Shown one piece after another: positions 9,327 through 16,194 of a DNA stretch of 40,004 bases. Where the stretch lies: contig JASJCU010000018.1 of NCBI GenBank assembly GCA_030065815.1, positions 1 to 40,004 of the forward strand, read 5' to 3'. Position numbers and translations under genes: made by a program. Source of the stretch: Gammaproteobacteria bacterium (GTDB lineage: Bacteria > Pseudomonadota > Gammaproteobacteria > Chromatiales > Chromatiaceae). The notes under the pieces are model-generated. The model searched no databases. It had not been told where the DNA came from and was given only the letters and a program-made list of their open reading frames with translations. How positions within the stretch are numbered: the first letter of the stretch is position 1; every line of letters begins with the position of its first letter.

Positions 9327-10460
9327 ATGAACACGCCAGCACCAGCCGAGCAAATCGAAGACTACCGCGACCTGTTCCTCCACGACGTGCCGCTGCTCGA
9401 CGTGCGCGCACCGGTCGAGTTCGCCGCGGGCGCCTTCCCGAGCGCGCGCAACCACCCACTGGTCGACGACGCCGAACGCCATCGCATCGGCATCGCGTAC
9501 AAGGACGCCGGCCAGCAACGCGCAGTCGCGCTCGGCGAGACGCTGGTCAGCGGCGCGCTCAAGGCCGAGCGCATCGCCACCTGGCGTGACTTCGTCGCGC
9601 GTCACCCCGGCGCGGTGCTGTACTGCTTCCGTGGCGGCATGCGCTCGCAGCTCAGCCAGCAGTGGCTGCACGACGAGGCCGGCCTCGACGTCCCGCGGGT
9701 GCGCGGCGGTTACAAGGCCATGCGACGCTTCCTGATCGACGAACTCGCCGCCAACGGCAGGCGCTGCAGGCCGGTCGTGATCGGTGGCCGCACCGGCGTC
9801 GGCAAGACGCGCCTGCTGCTGGGTTGTGATGCACGCATCGACCTCGAGGGCCTCGCCCACCATCGCGGCTCGGCTTTCGGCCACCATCCGCAACCGCAAC
9901 CGTCACAGATCGATTTCGAGAACGCGGCGTCGATCGCGCTGCTCAAGCACGTCGCGGCGGACAACCGCGCCTTCGTCGTCGAGGACGAGAGCCGCAACAT
10001 CGGCAGCCGCCACGTTCCGGTTCCGTTGTTCGACGCGATGCAGGCCGCACCGCTGGTGCTGCTCGAGGCCAGCGACGACGAGCGCGTCGAGATCACGTTG
10101 CAGGAGTACGTGCACGACGCGCTCGCCGAGTTCGTCGTTCACTATGGCGAAGAGGCCGGGCGCGAGCACTGGGCTGCGTATCTGCGCAACAGTCTCGACC
10201 GCATCCGCAAGCGCCTCGGCGGCGACCGCCATGCGCGCGCCCGGACCCTGCTCGACGACGCGCTCGACGCGCACGCGAGTCGTGGCGATACCGACGGGCA
10301 CCGCGCCTGGATCGCGTTTCTGTTGCGCGAATACTACGACGGCATGTACACGTACCAGTTGGAGAAGAAGGCGCAGCGTACGGTGTTTCGCGGCGCCGCC
10401 GACGGGGTCCGGGACTACCTCGCCGATCACTTCGGTATCGTCGCGGCGGGGACGGTGTAA
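9327..10460 (+). CDS. mnmH: tRNA 2-selenouridine synthase
   Basis: MnmH (SelU, YbbB) replaces the sulfur of s2U34 in the wobble position of certain tRNAs with selenium, via geranylation and selenophosphate. The 377-residue protein has the expected two parts. The N-terminal rhodanese domain begins FLHDVPLLDVRAPVEF and has the active cysteine C100 in YCFRGGMRS. A P-loop domain follows, with GGRTGVGKT at 153-161. Then come SAFG and FVVEDESRNIG segments typical of the family; usual length is about 360. The ATG at 9327 is the first start compatible with the family N terminus; the frame stays open further upstream but crosses the tcdA start. Its TAA overlaps an ATG (TAATG at 10458-10462) that opens a 12-codon ORF leading into the next gene. 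Function requires SelD elsewhere in the genome. Confidence 0.95.
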   Translation: MNTPAPAEQIEDYRDLFLHDVPLLDVRAPVEFAAGAFPSARNHPLVDDAERHRIGIAYKDAGQQRAVALGETLVSGALKAERIATWRDFVARHPGAVLYCFRGGMRSQLSQQWLHDEAGLDVPRVRGGYKAMRRFLIDELAANGRRCRPVVIGGRTGVGKTRLLLGCDARIDLEGLAHHRGSAFGHHPQPQPSQIDFENAASIALLKHVAADNRAFVVEDESRNIGSRHVPVPLFDAMQAAPLVLLEASDDERVEITLQEYVHDALAEFVVHYGEEAGREHWAAYLRNSLDRIRKRLGGDRHARARTLLDDALDAHASRGDTDGHRAWIAFLLREYYDGMYTYQLEKKAQRTVFRGAADGVRDYLADHFGIVAAGTV

Positions 10461-10498
10461 TGAAACACCGGCACATCGAACTGGGCCTGTCTCCGTGA
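10460..10498 (+). other. 12-codon mini-ORF linking mnmH to the protease gene
   Basis: An ATG overlapping the mnmH stop (TAATG) opens a 12-codon ORF, MKHRHIELGLSP. Its TGA at 10496-10498 overlaps the GTG that I take as the protease start (GTGA). A GGGA-type ribosome site lies upstream of the ATG. The arrangement suggests translational coupling from mnmH through the mini-ORF to the protease, rather than a functional peptide. Confidence 0.35.
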
Positions 10499-11781
10499 TC
10501 TGCAGCCCTTGTCTCCACCGTCGACCGCTGGCACGACTGATGCCGCTCGTGCTGGTCGTGATCGGCATCATGCTGCTCTGCGCACGGTCGGCTCGGGCAC
10601 TCGATTCGCAGCAGGTATTCGAGAGCAACGAGAGCGCGGTGTTCCAGATCCGCGTGATCAACCGCGAGACCGACAAGAAGTCGAGCATCGGCTCGGGCTT
10701 CATCTACGCCAGCCGCCGCGACATGGTCACCAACTACCATGTCGTCAGCCAGTACATCGAGCGTCCGGACGACTACGAACTGCGCTACCTGGCTGCCGAT
10801 GGCCGTGAGGGCGTGCTGGAGCTGGTCGCCGTCGACGCGGTCCACGATCTGGCGCGCGTGCGTGCCGACGTCGACCTCGGCACGCCGTTGCCGGTCGGCG
10901 AGCCGCCGCCGCGCGGCGCCCCGCTGTTCGCGATGGGCAATCCGCTCGATCTCGGCCTGACGATCGCCGCCGGCACCAACGGCGGCGTCCTCAGCCAGAC
11001 CGACGGCAGCCGCATCCTGTTCGCCGGCAGCCTGAACCCCGGCATGAGCGGCGGGCCGACATTCGACGAAGACGGCGTCGTCGTCGGGGTCAACGTGTCG
11101 ACCGCCCGCAACGACATCAGCTTCATCGTGCCGACCCGTTACCTCGGTCGTCTGAACGGCAGCGCTGCGCAGGACCCGTCGTCGCTGCTCGAACAGATAG
11201 CAACGCAGATTCGCGGCTACCAGGTCGACTACATCGGCGACATCATCGACGCCGAGTGGCCGATGACGACGATCCGACAGGTGCAGGTGCCGGGGGCCGT
11301 GTCGCCGACGGTCCGTTGCTGGGACGCCAGCCCTAAGGGCAAACCCGAGAACCTGTACCGGCAGTACGCGATCAACTGCAAGAACGAGAACGATATCTAC
11401 CTGACCGACCGGCTCGAAGTGGGCAAGGTGCTCTACGAATACGCGTGGCTGGAAACGGCCGAGATGGAACCGCAGCGTTTCTACCGGCTCTACGAGGCGT
11501 TCAACGACAGCCAGTTCGGCAGTCGTGCGGGCAAGGACGACGTCACGCGGTTTCGCTGCGAGACGGGCTTCGTCCACGTCAGCACAGAGGTCATGAAGAC
11601 CACGGTCTGTCGCCGCGACTACAAGCGTTACCCGGGGCTCAGCGACGTGCTGTTCACATCGGCGCTGGTCGGTCGCGAGCGCACCGGCTTCATCTTCAAT
11701 ATCGACCTGTCGGGCACCGACGCAGCGACCGCGGCGAGATTGATCGCGCGCTTCCTGGGAGAGATCGAATGGCGGCCCTGA
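10495..11781 (+). CDS. Exported trypsin-like serine protease with an extra C-terminal domain
   Basis: This is a predicted secreted or periplasmic chymotrypsin-fold endopeptidase of 428 residues. From the GTG at 10495 the protein starts with a basic region (HRRPLAR), a hydrophobic core LVLVVIGIMLLCA, and a signal-peptidase-like ARSARA/L site. The ATG at 10540 would remove the basic region, so GTG is preferred. The triad is visible as His82 in TNYHVVS, Asp118 in VHDLARV and Ser185 in NPGMSGGPTF, with GSGF upstream as in HtrA-like enzymes. There is no PDZ domain. Instead about 200 C-terminal residues with four or more cysteines (RCWDASP, INCKNEN, RCETGF, TTVCRRDYKRYPG) form a domain I do not recognise. 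The gene overlaps the following FHA gene by 13 bases, suggesting that they act together. The substrate is unknown. Confidence 0.85.
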   Translation: MICSPCLHRRPLARLMPLVLVVIGIMLLCARSARALDSQQVFESNESAVFQIRVINRETDKKSSIGSGFIYASRRDMVTNYHVVSQYIERPDDYELRYLAADGREGVLELVAVDAVHDLARVRADVDLGTPLPVGEPPPRGAPLFAMGNPLDLGLTIAAGTNGGVLSQTDGSRILFAGSLNPGMSGGPTFDEDGVVVGVNVSTARNDISFIVPTRYLGRLNGSAAQDPSSLLEQIATQIRGYQVDYIGDIIDAEWPMTTIRQVQVPGAVSPTVRCWDASPKGKPENLYRQYAINCKNENDIYLTDRLEVGKVLYEYAWLETAEMEPQRFYRLYEAFNDSQFGSRAGKDDVTRFRCETGFVHVSTEVMKTTVCRRDYKRYPGLSDVLFTSALVGRERTGFIFNIDLSGTDAATAARLIARFLGEIEWRP

Positions 11782-12728
11782 TACTGGAGATCGTTTCGCG
11801 GCACGTCAGCCAGTATGTCCCTGTCGACAAACCGACGCTGCGTGTCGGGCGTGCATTCGACAACGACGTGATCCTTACCGACCCGGCGGTGTCGCCGTAC
11901 CATTTCCTGATCCACAAGACCCCGCGGGGAGGCTACGAACTGCGGCCGCTGGCAGACGAGAATGGAATCCGCACCGGGCGTCACCGCATCGACGATGCCG
12001 TCGCGCTCGACCAGCTGCCGTTCGAGTTCGATGCCGGGCGTACCCGCTTTCGCGTCATCGACCGTGCACAGCCGGTCGCACCGACGCGCCTGATGAGCTG
12101 TCGCAACGGCGGCGCCTGTATCTTCGGCCACTGGAGCTGGGCGCTGGCGTTGTTCGCCGTCATGGTCTTGATCAGCGCATTCGAAAACTACCTGCAAACG
12201 CACCAGACCCTGAGCTGGGAGTCGTTCTGGCAAGACCAGCTGACGATCACCGCAACGGCGTTGAGTCTGTCGGTCGGCCTGCTGTTGCTCAACCGCGTGG
12301 TCTCTCACCGCTGGGACTACCCGGCGTCTCTCAGTTTCGTCAGTATCGCGCTGATTGCCGCCTTCGCGCTCGACCAGGTCGCCCAGTTAACCAATTACTT
12401 CTTTACTTCGGAGCTACCGGCGTTTGCGATCAATCTGGCATGGCTCGCGGTGTTGATGCCCCTGGCCACGGCCTGGTTCCTGATCCGGCTCAACCACGCC
12501 GGCAATATCGCCGCAACATTCGTCATCGTCGCGCTGTTCTCGCCAGCCGCCTACGTGCAGGTCAAAGAACTGGCGTCTCACTATGACCTGTTCGACGAAT
12601 TCAGCAAGAAGACCTATTACAGCAATTCGCTCCACCCGCGAGACTGGCGCATGCAGGCAACGGTCTCTATCGAGACGTTCCTGTCGGACAGCCTGCTGAT
12701 GCAACCTCCGGCGCCGGCCGAAGAATAA
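11769..12728 (+). CDS. FHA-domain membrane protein with about five transmembrane helices
   Basis: The 319-residue protein has an N-terminal FHA domain (about residues 1-95) with the phosphothreonine-binding pattern LRVGR..DNDVIL.D..VSPYH. FHA domains read phosphothreonine, so it may sense Ser/Thr phosphorylation. After a linker come about five hydrophobic helices: roughly 118-137, 158-180, 188-205, 221-241 and 246-262. A short hydrophilic tail ends MQPPAPAEE. The membrane part matches no family I know. The ATG at 11769 has GGGAG about 6 bases upstream, inside the end of the protease gene. Overlap with the exported protease gene implies coordinated production. No Ser/Thr kinase or phosphatase gene is present in this window. 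Confidence 0.85.
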   Translation: MAALILEIVSRHVSQYVPVDKPTLRVGRAFDNDVILTDPAVSPYHFLIHKTPRGGYELRPLADENGIRTGRHRIDDAVALDQLPFEFDAGRTRFRVIDRAQPVAPTRLMSCRNGGACIFGHWSWALALFAVMVLISAFENYLQTHQTLSWESFWQDQLTITATALSLSVGLLLLNRVVSHRWDYPASLSFVSIALIAAFALDQVAQLTNYFFTSELPAFAINLAWLAVLMPLATAWFLIRLNHAGNIAATFVIVALFSPAAYVQVKELASHYDLFDEFSKKTYYSNSLHPRDWRMQATVSIETFLSDSLLMQPPAPAEE

Positions 12729-12867: not shown

Positions 12868-13287
12868 ATGGCAAAAAAATCCCTGTCGAACCTGAGCGCT
12901 GACGAGCTCTATGAACTGGCTCGCGAACGCGAACAACAGGAAGCCGAGGAGGCCAAGGAAGCCGTGCGTGCACAGCTCGAGGCACTGCGCGATCAGCGTC
13001 GCGAGACCGTGGCCCGGCACCGTAAGGAGCTCGCCGCGATCGACGCCGAGATCCGCAGCCTCGGCGGCCGCACGACGCGTGGACGGCGCCGCCGTGCGGC
13101 CGGCGGTAGCGTTACCGATCATGTCCTGGAGATCGTCAGTGGCTCGAAGAAGATCTCGACCAAACAGATCAAGGCCGAACTGGAGACCCGCGGCGTGGTC
13201 GCCAACAACCTCGCGCAGACGCTGGCGTACCTGAAACGCCAGGGCAAGGTAACCTCCCCGGCACGCTCGATCTACTCGCCCGCCTGA
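12868..13287 (+). CDS. Small coiled-coil plus winged-helix protein, putative DNA-binding
   Basis: The 139-residue protein has three parts. Residues 6-65 are a highly charged helix (LSADELYELAREREQQEAEE and onward) predicted to form a coiled coil and mediate dimerisation. Residues about 66-80 are a basic linker, GRTTRGRRRRAAGG, suited to DNA backbone or minor-groove contact. Residues about 82-139 look like a small winged helix: VTDHVLEIVSG, then ISTKQIKAELETRGV, then LAQTLAYLKRQGKV and a short wing. The architecture resembles that of small nucleoid-associated or silencing proteins, but I recognise no named family. It has its own AT-rich upstream region and is followed by a hairpin, so it may be transcribed separately from its neighbours. 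DNA binding is inferred from architecture only. Confidence 0.75.
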   Translation: MAKKSLSNLSADELYELAREREQQEAEEAKEAVRAQLEALRDQRRETVARHRKELAAIDAEIRSLGGRTTRGRRRRAAGGSVTDHVLEIVSGSKKISTKQIKAELETRGVVANNLAQTLAYLKRQGKVTSPARSIYSPA

Positions 13288-13386: not shown

Positions 13387-13419
13387 ATGACAAAAACCGC
13401 CCCGGCGCCACCCGCATGA
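13387..13419 (+). other. 10-codon mini-ORF that ends on the start of the first GTPase gene
   Basis: The ATG at 13387 opens a 10-codon ORF, MTKTAPAPPA, whose TGA overlaps the GTPase ATG as ATGA at 13416-13419. An AGGG element lies 7-10 bases before the mini-ORF, whereas no purine-rich ribosome site precedes the GTPase ATG itself. Translation of the GTPase may therefore depend on ribosomes finishing this mini-ORF. Confidence 0.35.
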
Positions 13420-14906
13420 GTCTCCCGCGCAGCATCCGCATCCTGGTCGCGATGGCCGTGCTGGTCCTCGGCCTCGCGGCGCTGCTGCTGATACTGACCC
13501 TCGGCGAGGCGGCGTTGACCATCCGGGCACAGCTCGCCGACGCGCCGTTGTGGCTGCAGGCCGCGTGGTGGGGGCTGGTCGGCGTCGTCTGCTCGCTGTT
13601 CACCTGGCTGATCTGGCGCCTGCTGCGCGCGCCAGGTCCGACGCCTGACCGACCCGCTGACGACGCAGCGGCAGGCGCCGACGCCGATAGCGTCGCGGCG
13701 GCGATGGCTGACGCCGAGTCGCTGGGTGCCGATACCAGCGACGTGCGCCGCGAGCTCGACAGGCTTGCCCGGCGCCAGGCGGCCGGCGACATCCATGTCG
13801 CATTGTTCGGCGAGATATCGACCGGCAAATCGGCGCTGATCAACGCCCTGTTGCCGGACGCCGAGGCCCGCAGCGACGTCCGCGGCGGCACGACCCGCGA
13901 TCTGGTCAGTTACACCTGGACGAGCGCCTCCGGCGACCGCCTGATCGTGACCGACATGCCGGGTACCGCCGAGGCCGACGGCGTCCTCGACCGGCTTGCC
14001 GAGGACGAGGCGCAGCGCGCGCACATCGTGGTCTACGTGACCGATGGCGATCTCAATCGCGCCCAGCACACGGCCTTGCGGGCGCTGCTCGCGATCCGCA
14101 AGCCGGTCATCCTCGCGCTAAACAAGAGCGATCGTTACTCGGCCGCCGAACGCGCGGCACTGAGCGGGCGGCTGCGCGAGCTGCTCGGCGACGCGCCCAA
14201 CGCCGAGCTCGTCGAGGTGTCCGCGGCGACCCAACGCCAGGTCGTCAAGGTCCTGCCCGACGGCAGCGAGCGCAGCGAGAGCCGCAGCGTCGCGCCACGT
14301 GTCGACGCGCTCGCCCTGGCCTTGCAGCGCCAGATCGACGGTCGGCAGGAGATCCTCGACCGGCTGCGCGACAGCGCGACCTTCGTGCTCGCCCGCCAGC
14401 AACTCGACCGCGCGATCGCGGCGTCCCGGCGGCAGCGTGCCGACAGGCTGGTCGACGGCTACGCCGGCAAGGCCGTGGTCGGCGCGCTGGCGGCGATCAC
14501 GCCGGGCTCCGACCTGCTGATCCAGGGCTACCTCGGCACCCAGCTGGTGCGCGAGCTGGCGGCGTTGTACGACACCAAGGTCGGCAAGGTCGATAGCGAG
14601 CTGCTGCTGTCGCTGGTCCAGCACCATGTCGGCAAGGCCCACACGCTGCTGCTGGCGGTCGCCGGAAACGCACTGAAGGCCTTCCCCGGCGTCGGTACGC
14701 TGGCTGGCGGTGCACTGCACGCGGTCGCCTACGGCATCATCTTCCGGACCCTCGGGAGGGCGCTGACGACGACGCTCGAGACCCGCGGCGAGCTGCACCC
14801 GCGGCAGACCGCGAAACTGTTCGAGGAGACATTGGGTGAAGATCTGGAAACGTCTGCGCGCGGTATTGCCAGACTGGTTGCCGAGCGGGCGCGCCGCGCC
14901 GAGTGA
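13416..14906 (+). CDS. Membrane-anchored GTPase with DUF697-like C-terminal region (first of a pair)
   Basis: The 496-residue protein starts with two hydrophobic segments (about 8-29 and 48-70), giving an inner-membrane hairpin. A dimeric-type GTPase domain follows: P-loop GEISTGKS at 132-139, a G2-like GGTTRD at 157-162, DMPG at 180-183 and NKSD at 236-239. The C-terminal third is helical and hydrophobic, with GYAGKAVVGALAAITPGSDLLI and later LTLL- and Gly-rich helices, resembling the DUF697 region of YcjF-type proteins. G3 is DMPG rather than the usual DTPG. The ATG at 13416 lacks its own ribosome site and overlaps the stop of a mini-ORF. The gene overlaps the next, paralogous GTPase gene by 71 bases. 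A role in membrane dynamics or stress is plausible but unproven. Confidence 0.82.
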   Translation: MSLPRSIRILVAMAVLVLGLAALLLILTLGEAALTIRAQLADAPLWLQAAWWGLVGVVCSLFTWLIWRLLRAPGPTPDRPADDAAAGADADSVAAAMADAESLGADTSDVRRELDRLARRQAAGDIHVALFGEISTGKSALINALLPDAEARSDVRGGTTRDLVSYTWTSASGDRLIVTDMPGTAEADGVLDRLAEDEAQRAHIVVYVTDGDLNRAQHTALRALLAIRKPVILALNKSDRYSAAERAALSGRLRELLGDAPNAELVEVSAATQRQVVKVLPDGSERSESRSVAPRVDALALALQRQIDGRQEILDRLRDSATFVLARQQLDRAIAASRRQRADRLVDGYAGKAVVGALAAITPGSDLLIQGYLGTQLVRELAALYDTKVGKVDSELLLSLVQHHVGKAHTLLLAVAGNALKAFPGVGTLAGGALHAVAYGIIFRTLGRALTTTLETRGELHPRQTAKLFEETLGEDLETSARGIARLVAERARRAE

Positions 14907-16194
14907 CACGGTCCCGGACGGCGACGCGCACCTCGCGCTGGCCCGCGAGAGCCTGCGCGAGCTGCTCGACGACGAGCGCGTACCGGCCGAGGTGCGCGAC
15001 GCCCTGAGCGACGACTACCGCCAGGTCGAGTCGATGCTGGACAAGCTCGAACACGGCCATATCCACATCGCAGTCTTCGGTCGGGTCAGCGTCGGCAAAT
15101 CCGCACTGGTCAATGCGCTGCTCGGCGAGCAGCGCTTCGCGACCAGCCCGCTGCACGGCGAGACGCGCACGATCCAACACGGCCAGTGGCACGAGTTCCG
15201 CGACGGCAACGTTTTCCTTATCGACACACCGGGGATCAACGAGGTCGGCGGCGAGGCGCGCGAACAACTGGCGCGCGACGTGGCCGGACGCTCCGACCTG
15301 GTCGTGTTCGTCGTCGACGGCGACCTGACGAAGGTCGAGATCGACGCCCTGCGCACGCTGGTCGACACGCGGCGGCCGCTGATCCTGGTGCTCAACAAGG
15401 TCGACCGTTACACCGACGAGGAACGGCAACAACTGAGCGCGGCGTTGCACGAACACAGCCGCGGCCTGCTGCCCGCCGAGCACCTGGTCAGCGCGGCCGC
15501 GCAACCGGCCGCGCAGTGGGTGGTGCGCGTCGACGCCGACGGCAACGAGCGCGAGGAGCAGCGGACGCCGCCGCCGCGGGTCGACGCGCTCAAGGCGCGC
15601 CTGTGGGAGGTGCTGGAGAACGAGGGCAAGACACTGGCGGCGCTGAACGCGTCGCTGTTCGCCGGCGAACTCAGTGACCAGGTCGCCACCCGTGTCATAA
15701 CGGCGCGACGCACCCTCGGCGAACGCGTGATCCGGACCTGGTGCATCGCCAAAGGCGTCGCGGTCGCGCTCAACCCGGTCCCGGTGGCCGACCTCGCGGC
15801 GGCCGCGATCGTCGACGTCAGCATGGTCGTACACCTGTCGCGGGCCTACGGGCTGCCGCTCAGTCGCGCCGAGGCCGGGGGCCTGGTGAAGACGATCGGT
15901 GCCCAGATGCTCGTGTTGATTGGCACGGTATGGGCGGTCCACCTGATCGCATCGGCACTGAAGCTCGGCACCGGCGGGCTGTCGGCCGTTGTCACCGGAG
16001 GCGCCCAGGGGGTCGTCGCGTACTACAGCACCTACGTCGTCGGGCGCGCCGCGGAGCGCTACCTGGCCAACGGCAGGTCGTGGGGCGAAGCCGGCCCCAA
16101 GCTGGCGGTCAAGGAGATCCTCGACAGCCTCGATCGCGATTCGATCGTCGAACAGGCGAAGGCCGACATTCGCGCACGGCTCGGCACCGGCTGA
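14836..16194 (+). CDS. GTPase with DUF697-like C-terminal region (second of a pair)
   Basis: The 452-residue protein is a paralogue of the preceding gene product but lacks its N-terminal membrane hairpin. The GTPase domain has GRVSVGKS at 82-89, GETRT at 108-112, the canonical DTPG at 130-133 and NKVD at 187-190. The C-terminal part is alternately amphipathic and hydrophobic, with NPVPVADLAAAAIVDVSMV and MLVLIGTVWAVHLIASAL, as in DUF697 proteins. It may insert in or peel onto the membrane. The start is GTG at 14836, with GAGGAG 8 bases upstream inside the previous gene. The 71-base overlap in a different frame points to coupled translation and a heteromeric partnership. YcjX/YcjF-like and bacterial dynamin-like pairs are the nearest concepts I know; neither is shown by sequence alone. 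Confidence 0.82.
   Translation: MKIWKRLRAVLPDWLPSGRAAPSDTVPDGDAHLALARESLRELLDDERVPAEVRDALSDDYRQVESMLDKLEHGHIHIAVFGRVSVGKSALVNALLGEQRFATSPLHGETRTIQHGQWHEFRDGNVFLIDTPGINEVGGEAREQLARDVAGRSDLVVFVVDGDLTKVEIDALRTLVDTRRPLILVLNKVDRYTDEERQQLSAALHEHSRGLLPAEHLVSAAAQPAAQWVVRVDADGNEREEQRTPPPRVDALKARLWEVLENEGKTLAALNASLFAGELSDQVATRVITARRTLGERVIRTWCIAKGVAVALNPVPVADLAAAAIVDVSMVVHLSRAYGLPLSRAEAGGLVKTIGAQMLVLIGTVWAVHLIASALKLGTGGLSAVVTGGAQGVVAYYSTYVVGRAAERYLANGRSWGEAGPKLAVKEILDSLDRDSIVEQAKADIRARLGTG

Follow-up and report, generated by a model that had tools for sequence, protein, structure and literature searches.

Two paralogous DUF697 GTPases paired through a dual-coding gene overlap in Gammaproteobacteria

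Why should two related GTPases be encoded so closely that the second gene starts inside the first, and what might such a pair do? The question is raised by a stretch of 40,004 nucleotides (nt) of a member of the Chromatiaceae (GenBank assembly GCA_030065815.1, contig JASJCU010000018.1, positions 1 to 40,004), hereafter the window. Its gene A (13416-14906, 496 amino acids, ATG start) and gene B (14836-16194, 452 amino acids, GTG start), both on the forward strand as are all features given below, share the 71 nt from 14836 to 14906 in different reading frames, the C-terminus of A and the N-terminus of B thus being encoded by the same bases. An initial annotation of this DNA had described two related GTPases overlapping by 71 bases, and both the coordinates of the open reading frames and the BLASTP comparison of their products, which are paralogues (130 identities in 399 aligned columns, 33%, E 1e-39), agree with it. 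Both the pairing and the overlap are well supported by the genomes that we compared.

A start site for gene B inside gene A

To describe the overlap we drew on a set of 80 named loci, the best 80 of 371 confirmed contigs carrying B. The overlap was counted in 76 loci, namely 75 of these 80 and the window. Left out were two loci in which A is frameshifted (L069) or cut at the contig edge (L077), both of which also overlap, and three in which only the tail of A overlaps B, one through an insertion (L084) and two because the pair is split (L088, L089). The start of B was taken as the start codon nearest to the aligned N-terminus, a rule that favours finding one; the tests on the codons of A, on background positions and on synonymous sites are less affected by this choice. 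In L045, L046, L048 and L097 the first pick lay in an inserted linker and the start was set by hand. Related loci are not independent, so the overlap and codon figures are descriptive.

In these 76 loci B starts with GTG (74) or ATG (2), always in the same frame relative to A, and the overlap measures 65-104 nt in 75 loci and 11 nt in the remaining one. The Shine-Dalgarno-like motif GAGGAG that would serve B (14823-14828) lies inside the coding sequence of A, 7 nt before the start codon, and a motif of this kind was found 3-8 nt upstream of the B start in 75 of the 76 loci, compared with 2906 of 32536 same-phase windows elsewhere in A (8.9%). GTG or ATG themselves occupy only 1218 of 32536 same-phase background positions (3.7%).

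The codon of A that creates the start of B, GGT in the window (14835-14837), has the form NGT or NAT in 76 of 76 loci, being AGT in 40, GGT in 32, CGT in two and AAT in two. Codons for the same residue elsewhere in the same A genes end likewise in a mean of 19% of cases. Four different residues of A lie under the B start, all encoded in the shape that this start needs. Constraint extends across the overlap: among nine genus-level sequences, sites with the same residue carried identical codons at 355 of 492 positions inside it (72%) versus 5643 of 11051 outside (51%), and codon identity was higher inside in all 36 genus pairs. What we find is thus an out-of-frame overlap with an internal, conserved, Shine-Dalgarno-like ribosome-binding site and a start codon under selection, and on this comparative evidence the overlap is functional in the gammaproteobacterial loci and its synonymous sites are constrained. 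It also suggests that B depends on the translation of A, that is, that the two genes are translationally coupled.

Outside the class the arrangement is different. We read eight loci belonging to other classes of the phylum, and their candidate starts put the overlap at 4 nt in L138 and L140-L143 (five loci), leave a short one in L144 and L145 and give a small gap in L146; because these eight are arranged differently, the long overlap looks like an elaboration within Gammaproteobacteria.

Genomes in which the pair has been split bear on the same site. In L088 and L089, B has been relocated together with only the last codons of A, which carry the Shine-Dalgarno-like motif and start of B, and a full-length A is retained on another contig. 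In both genomes this full-length A has AGC in place of AGT, a change that is silent in A and turns the GTG of B into GCG. A further change, of CGT in four intact relatives to CGG, again leaves the A protein as it was and alters the frame of B. In one of the two genomes the moved tail of A has gained a stop codon that leaves the B frame intact. As judged from these substitutions, each reading frame is altered where it is no longer needed, and both proteins are retained. Looser arrangements were also found: genes for YceI and cytochrome b561 stand between A and B in one genome (G403; L137 2963-4391), a gap of about 2 kb separates them in another (G782), and in a third (G076) they lie on different contigs.

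Co-occurrence and surroundings of the pair

A, or a piece of it, lies upstream of B in 80 of the 80 named contigs, which indicates that the pairing is not due to chance. The titles of these best 80 of 371 contigs include Chromatiales, Thiothrix, Competibacteraceae, Thiosymbion, Sedimenticola and Woeseiaceae. One record titled Phycisphaerales (L104) has a pair resembling that of the Competibacteraceae records, and its bin may be mislabelled or contaminated.

Genome samples gave the same picture. B was present in 16 of 56 related genomes, with A beside it in all 16, and a reciprocal search with a profile of A recovered A from these 16 genomes, the other 40 giving no match; it is in these 56 relatives that the occurrence of A without B was addressed. 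An even sample of the class (369 genomes) had a near-complete B in 49, in some cases in pieces on two contigs, and A in all 49. Here A was taken from the genome table in 47 and located by tblastn on their own contigs in G136 and G349; two further genomes, G190 (A runs off the contig) and G275 (a B fragment at a contig end), were left out of this count. In a sample of the phylum (398 genomes), A was found in 12 of the 12 genomes with B. With the samples pooled, A accompanies B in 71 of 71 distinct genomes, a figure that includes genomes with the two genes apart and some close relatives that are not independent events. The pair is obligate within the sampled genomes, and the lack of co-occurrence that would have spoken against the initial annotation is rejected.

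The surroundings are far less constant. Among nine flanking open reading frames, Pfam named RapA, RdgC, a ThiF-family protein, a trypsin-like protease, an FHA protein, DUF937 and a response regulator, and the named genes are mostly housekeeping ones (RapA, RdgC, ThiF-family). Neighbours differ between lineages, the recurrent ones (radical-SAM, TsaD-like, Rsd/AlgQ and GPAT proteins) being lineage-specific. Searches by tblastn with B as the only query found no relatives in 72,556 plasmid records (E 1e-15) or in 50,697 phage records (E 1e-10). The pair looks like a chromosomal unit rather than an island; housekeeping flanks, variable neighbours and the failure to find B in plasmid or phage records do not bear out the phage-defence or stress island for which the initial annotation had proposed to inspect the neighbourhood.

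Directly upstream of A, the window encodes a charged protein of 139 amino acids without a Pfam match (12868-13287), preceded by the genes for the trypsin-like protease and the FHA-domain protein (9784-12728). Families of open reading frames at distances matching those of the latter two recur in about six loci.

Architecture and GTP-binding motifs of the two proteins

Both products passed the Pfam cut-offs for the GTPase family MMR_HSR1 (21.9 bits; A 52.5, B 74.3) and for DUF697 (PF05128, gathering cut-off 27.7 bits; A 35.5, B 111.1), in keeping with the DUF697-like tails that had been assigned to them. At E 0.001 the genome of the window has no DUF697 match besides A and B. For a broader comparison we aligned the window with 46 of 72 near-full-length A sequences (47 rows) and with 47 of 80 B sequences (48 rows), picked for spread; the B rows of L045 and L046 begin at a wrongly chosen start. 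DUF697 was matched at E <= 0.001 by all 48 B sequences and by 31 of the 47 A sequences.

The AlphaFold2 model of A, computed from the 47-row alignment, has a mean predicted local distance difference test score (pLDDT) of 83 and consists of a two-helix N-terminal hairpin, a poorly defined linker, the GTPase domain, a helix of 49 residues and further helices. The hairpin (residues 5-70, 13428-13625; model helices 5-41 and 45-70) is predicted to be membrane-inserted, with Kyte-Doolittle peaks of 3.2 and 1.7 in the window and of 3.0 and 1.9 when averaged over the alignment. It is followed by the GTPase domain (residues 126-309, 13791-14342), with G1 GEISTGKS, G3 DMPG and G4 NKSD, and by the helical DUF697 domain (residues 328-457, 14397-14786). 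Inspection by eye of 14 relatives gave no sign of a leader peptide ahead of A, which in the window would begin with the ATG at 13387.

B, whose model from 48 rows has a mean pLDDT of 69, lacks a hydrophobic hairpin at its N-terminus, unlike A; hydropathy and model helices thus agree with the earlier statement that only one of the two proteins has an N-terminal membrane hairpin. B begins instead with a basic, probably amphipathic helix (residues 2-10, 14839-14865), modelled at pLDDT below 50. Over the 48 rows, mis-started L045 and L046 included, residues 2-12 have a mean hydrophobic moment of 0.61, versus 0.35 (sd 0.17) for shuffled sequences, and a mean charge of +2.4. The GTPase domain (residues 73-262, 15052-15621; G1 GRVSVGKS, G3 DTPG, G4 NKVD) is supported by fold matches as well as by Pfam, and within the helical DUF697 domain (residues 276-433, 15661-16134) hydrophobicity peaks around residues 317 and 359. 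In several B orthologues (L084, L097, L039, L048) a long insert sets the GTPase domain apart from the amphipathic N-terminus.

Are both proteins likely to work as GTPases? The initial annotation had read DMPG at G3 of one partner and DTPG at G3 of the other, as is the case in A and B respectively, and had taken this to suggest one active and one altered partner. The G3 motif, however, requires only DxxG, so DMPG is not a lesion. In A, G1 ends in GKS or GKT and the G2 threonine is kept in all 47 aligned sequences, G3 is DxPG in all 47 (DMPG 25, DVPG 12, DLPG 9, DIPG 1) and G4 is NKxD in 45 and NKAE in two. In B, G1 ends in GKS and G4 is NKxD in all 48, with G3 being DTPG in 47 and DTSG in one. 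With their GTP-binding motifs intact, A and B both look like working GTPases, which goes against an altered partner.

The steady contrast between DxPG in A and DTPG in B rather marks two subfamilies. In a FastTree phylogeny the split between all B on one side and all A with one further sequence, L139, on the other has local support 1.0; that between all A and the rest, namely all B and L139, has 0.926. A is the more diverged of the two (mean pairwise tree distance 1.75 versus 1.13 for B). A mirror-tree correlation of r 0.83 over 52 pairs is confounded by species relatedness and was not used. L139 (G412:C4:40500-43500), a third GTPase of the DUF697 type, has its branch between the two clades and is possibly closer to an ancestral, unpaired form.

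Candidate roles of the pair

Since A and B occur together and their genes overlap, they are probably one uncharacterised membrane-acting machine, and we lean towards a reading in which they are subunits of a single heterotypic, membrane-associated GTPase system of dynamin/IRG-like type. We infer the A-B complex, the topology of A and the action on membranes from the features described above. A would be held in the cytoplasmic membrane by its N-terminal hairpin, with its GTPase and DUF697 domains in the cytoplasm, and B would be soluble or peripheral, its basic amphipathic helix and hydrophobic DUF697 helices touching the membrane. Ribosomes ending A would initiate B at the GTG within the last codons of A, and with its start inside A, B would be produced beside fresh A and in a fixed ratio to it. 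Through nucleotide-dependent pairing of their GTPase domains, A and B would assemble into units by which the membrane is tethered, bent or protected; in these units A would be anchored and B recruited, both would cycle GTP, and the DUF697 helices would form the membrane-acting or oligomerising part.

The precedent for such a heterotypic mechanism comes from paired bacterial dynamin-like proteins. According to an excerpt of PMC6104087, the majority of bacterial dynamin-like proteins occur as operon-encoded pairs, and the Campylobacter pair DLP1/DLP2 (5owv) forms a 2:2 complex proposed to tether membranes. Like A and B, these and other paired dynamin-like proteins are two unlike GTPases of one operon thought, in that excerpt, to form heterotypic complexes, and the likeness to paired large GTPases noted in the initial annotation holds at the level of this pairing pattern. 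In contrast, the sequence match of A and B to the Campylobacter proteins is confined to the GTPase domain, and with 496 and 452 amino acids, versus 732 in one 5owv chain, A and B are the shorter proteins and carry DUF697. In the searches made, which for the literature covered open-licence PMC, we found no orthology to an already characterised pair, the other outcome that would have counted against the initial annotation.

The second line of resemblance is to IRG proteins. The top Foldseek matches of B are mitofusin 2, Irga6 and BDLP, and B aligns with IRG chains such as Irga6 over both the GTPase and the helical domain: chain 1tpz with Z 17.8 over 258 residues (root-mean-square deviation, rmsd, 6.3), and chain 4lv8 with Z 18.0 over 259 residues (rmsd 7.1), the latter tied with plain GTPases and resting on a model of mean pLDDT 69. 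At E <= 0.001, the IRG profile IIGP (PF05049) is matched by 18 of the 48 B sequences, and none is listed for A. The homology seen so far is confined to the GTPase domain, and A and B differ from IRG proteins in being bacterial and in including a hairpin-bearing partner. An excerpt of PMC1297648 points out IRG-like traits in several groups of bacterial GTPases, above all in those of cyanobacteria, although a relationship could not be established.

Several results weigh against this reading. Setting slr1306 aside, Der and Era are the curated families that the GTPase domains resemble most in sequence, with higher scores than dynamins. IIGP was missed at its cut-off (24 bits; B 23.8, A not listed), and the query-normalised Foldseek TM-scores are low (0.21-0.35 in the rows shown), the long alignments having high rmsd. 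Among the rows listed, structural alignments of A reach little beyond its GTPase domain, although this in itself excludes nothing, and the model of B is of moderate confidence, falling below pLDDT 50 at residues 317-320 and 364-385. Besides A, B and shadow frames, no third gene is conserved in more than about 10 of the 80 loci, many contigs being short and the flanks unevenly sampled. Neither RuBisCO nor polyhydroxyalkanoate (PHA) synthase strictly tracks the pair, which leaves many carriers unexplained. Of the profile comparisons suggested in the initial annotation, the one with DUF697 held for both proteins, that with IRG proteins narrowly failed and that with dynamins differed between the two: Dynamin_N (PF00350, cut-off 27 bits) scored 48.0 in B, in two pieces, and 26.5 in A, and this unspecific model has matches in 12 of 14 control genomes. 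Two more GTPases in the genome of the window (G000) exceed the Dynamin_N cut-off; they lie in open frames of 649 and 624 amino acids separate from the pair (contigs C122, 5074-5709, and C125, 5374-5865).

As a wider and tentative proposal, A and B might represent a class of bacterial membrane machines that has not been described before, built from two proteins that always go together. Both would be IRG/mitofusin-like DUF697 GTPases related to slr1306 of cyanobacteria, one anchored in the membrane and the other peripheral, with their stoichiometry fixed by a dual-coding start, and they would be conserved as a unit in Gammaproteobacteria and beyond.

The main rival is a regulatory switch of Era/Der type, with A as membrane receptor and B as its partner, controlling the assembly or targeting of another membrane complex. 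Such a membrane receptor with its partner has a precedent in the signal recognition particle and its receptor (SRP/SR). The sequence affinity to Der and Era fits this idea, as does the highest structural Z of A, which is with Era (19.9), and the long overlap would suit a receptor pair made in fixed ratio. The mitofusin, IRG and BDLP matches of B point elsewhere, however, as do the hydrophobic, helical nature of DUF697, the Pfam results, which list no RNA-binding domain in A or B, and the failure to find a conserved partner gene in the loci; we consider a switch unlikely, if still worth serious attention.

A role in taking up inorganic carbon or concentrating CO2, which has been proposed for slr1306 of Synechocystis, is suggested by the profile searches: within NCBIfam, A (95.6 bits) and B (159.1 bits) both match the slr1306 family of cyanobacteria (NF049994) best, over the GTPase domain and part of the helical region. 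A paper title cited in PMC5472144 names slr1306 a putative component of the CO2-concentrating mechanism. Both scores are, however, far below the family cut-off of 490 bits. RuBisCO (PF00016, a profile that may also take in RuBisCO-like proteins) was matched more often in genomes with the pair, 34 of 51, than in the others, 148 of 318 (Fisher p 0.0099, uncorrected for relatedness), and PHA synthase was found in 16 of 51 versus 55 of 318 (p 0.022), the genome of the window having none; both tests are exploratory and ignore relatedness, and the 51 include G190 and G275 with only a piece of the pair. RuBisCO was not matched in 17 of the 51, of which 15 are at least 90% complete. Carbon fixation as a general role was rejected on account of these 17 genomes, and a role in CO2 concentration cannot be general because RuBisCO was matched in only 34 of 51; we regard the carbon role as improbable. 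A role in PHA storage was discarded since many carriers, including the genome of the window, lack the synthase.

Still more doubtful is an arrangement in which one of the two proteins is no GTPase itself but controls the other, an active and an altered protein as with the IRG quasi-GTPases. The greater divergence of A and its G3, consistently unlike that of B, would fit, and a tandem of an IRG and a quasi-GTPase is described in an excerpt of PMC1297648, but the nucleotide-binding motifs of A are conserved over the 47 sequences, the two with NKAE included.

YcjX and YcjF of enterobacteria are also a pair, and PF05128 has matches in the E. coli control too; YcjF carries DUF697, and YcjX is a DUF463 protein. 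DUF463 (PF04317) is, however, absent from A and B, has no match in the genome of the window and occurs in only one of the 51 genomes with the pair, so the initial annotation was right in setting this system apart. A phage-defence or envelope-stress island of Leo-like or YcjX/YcjF-like kind would fit the matches of the PADLOC LeoA and LeoBC models to the GTPase domains and those of PF05128 in E. coli. It is hardly credible, however, given that, besides these differences, the Leo matches are partial (60-267 of 559-601 profile positions), that B was not found in plasmid or phage records at the limits used and that the named genes in the flanks are mostly housekeeping ones.

As far as the open-licence literature shows, DUF697 GTPases have been little studied, and slr1306 is likewise rarely mentioned. 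The pairing of A with B turns an orphan domain into a testable system with two partners and an expected order of assembly. The coupling site could be switched off by a single codon change that is silent in A, a change that the natural split-operon genomes have already made. If the heterotypic pair does remodel membranes, the bacterial dynamin-like proteins would gain a compact design based on DUF697, and the pair would provide an experimental handle on the IRG-like bacterial GTPases mentioned in the excerpt of PMC1297648.

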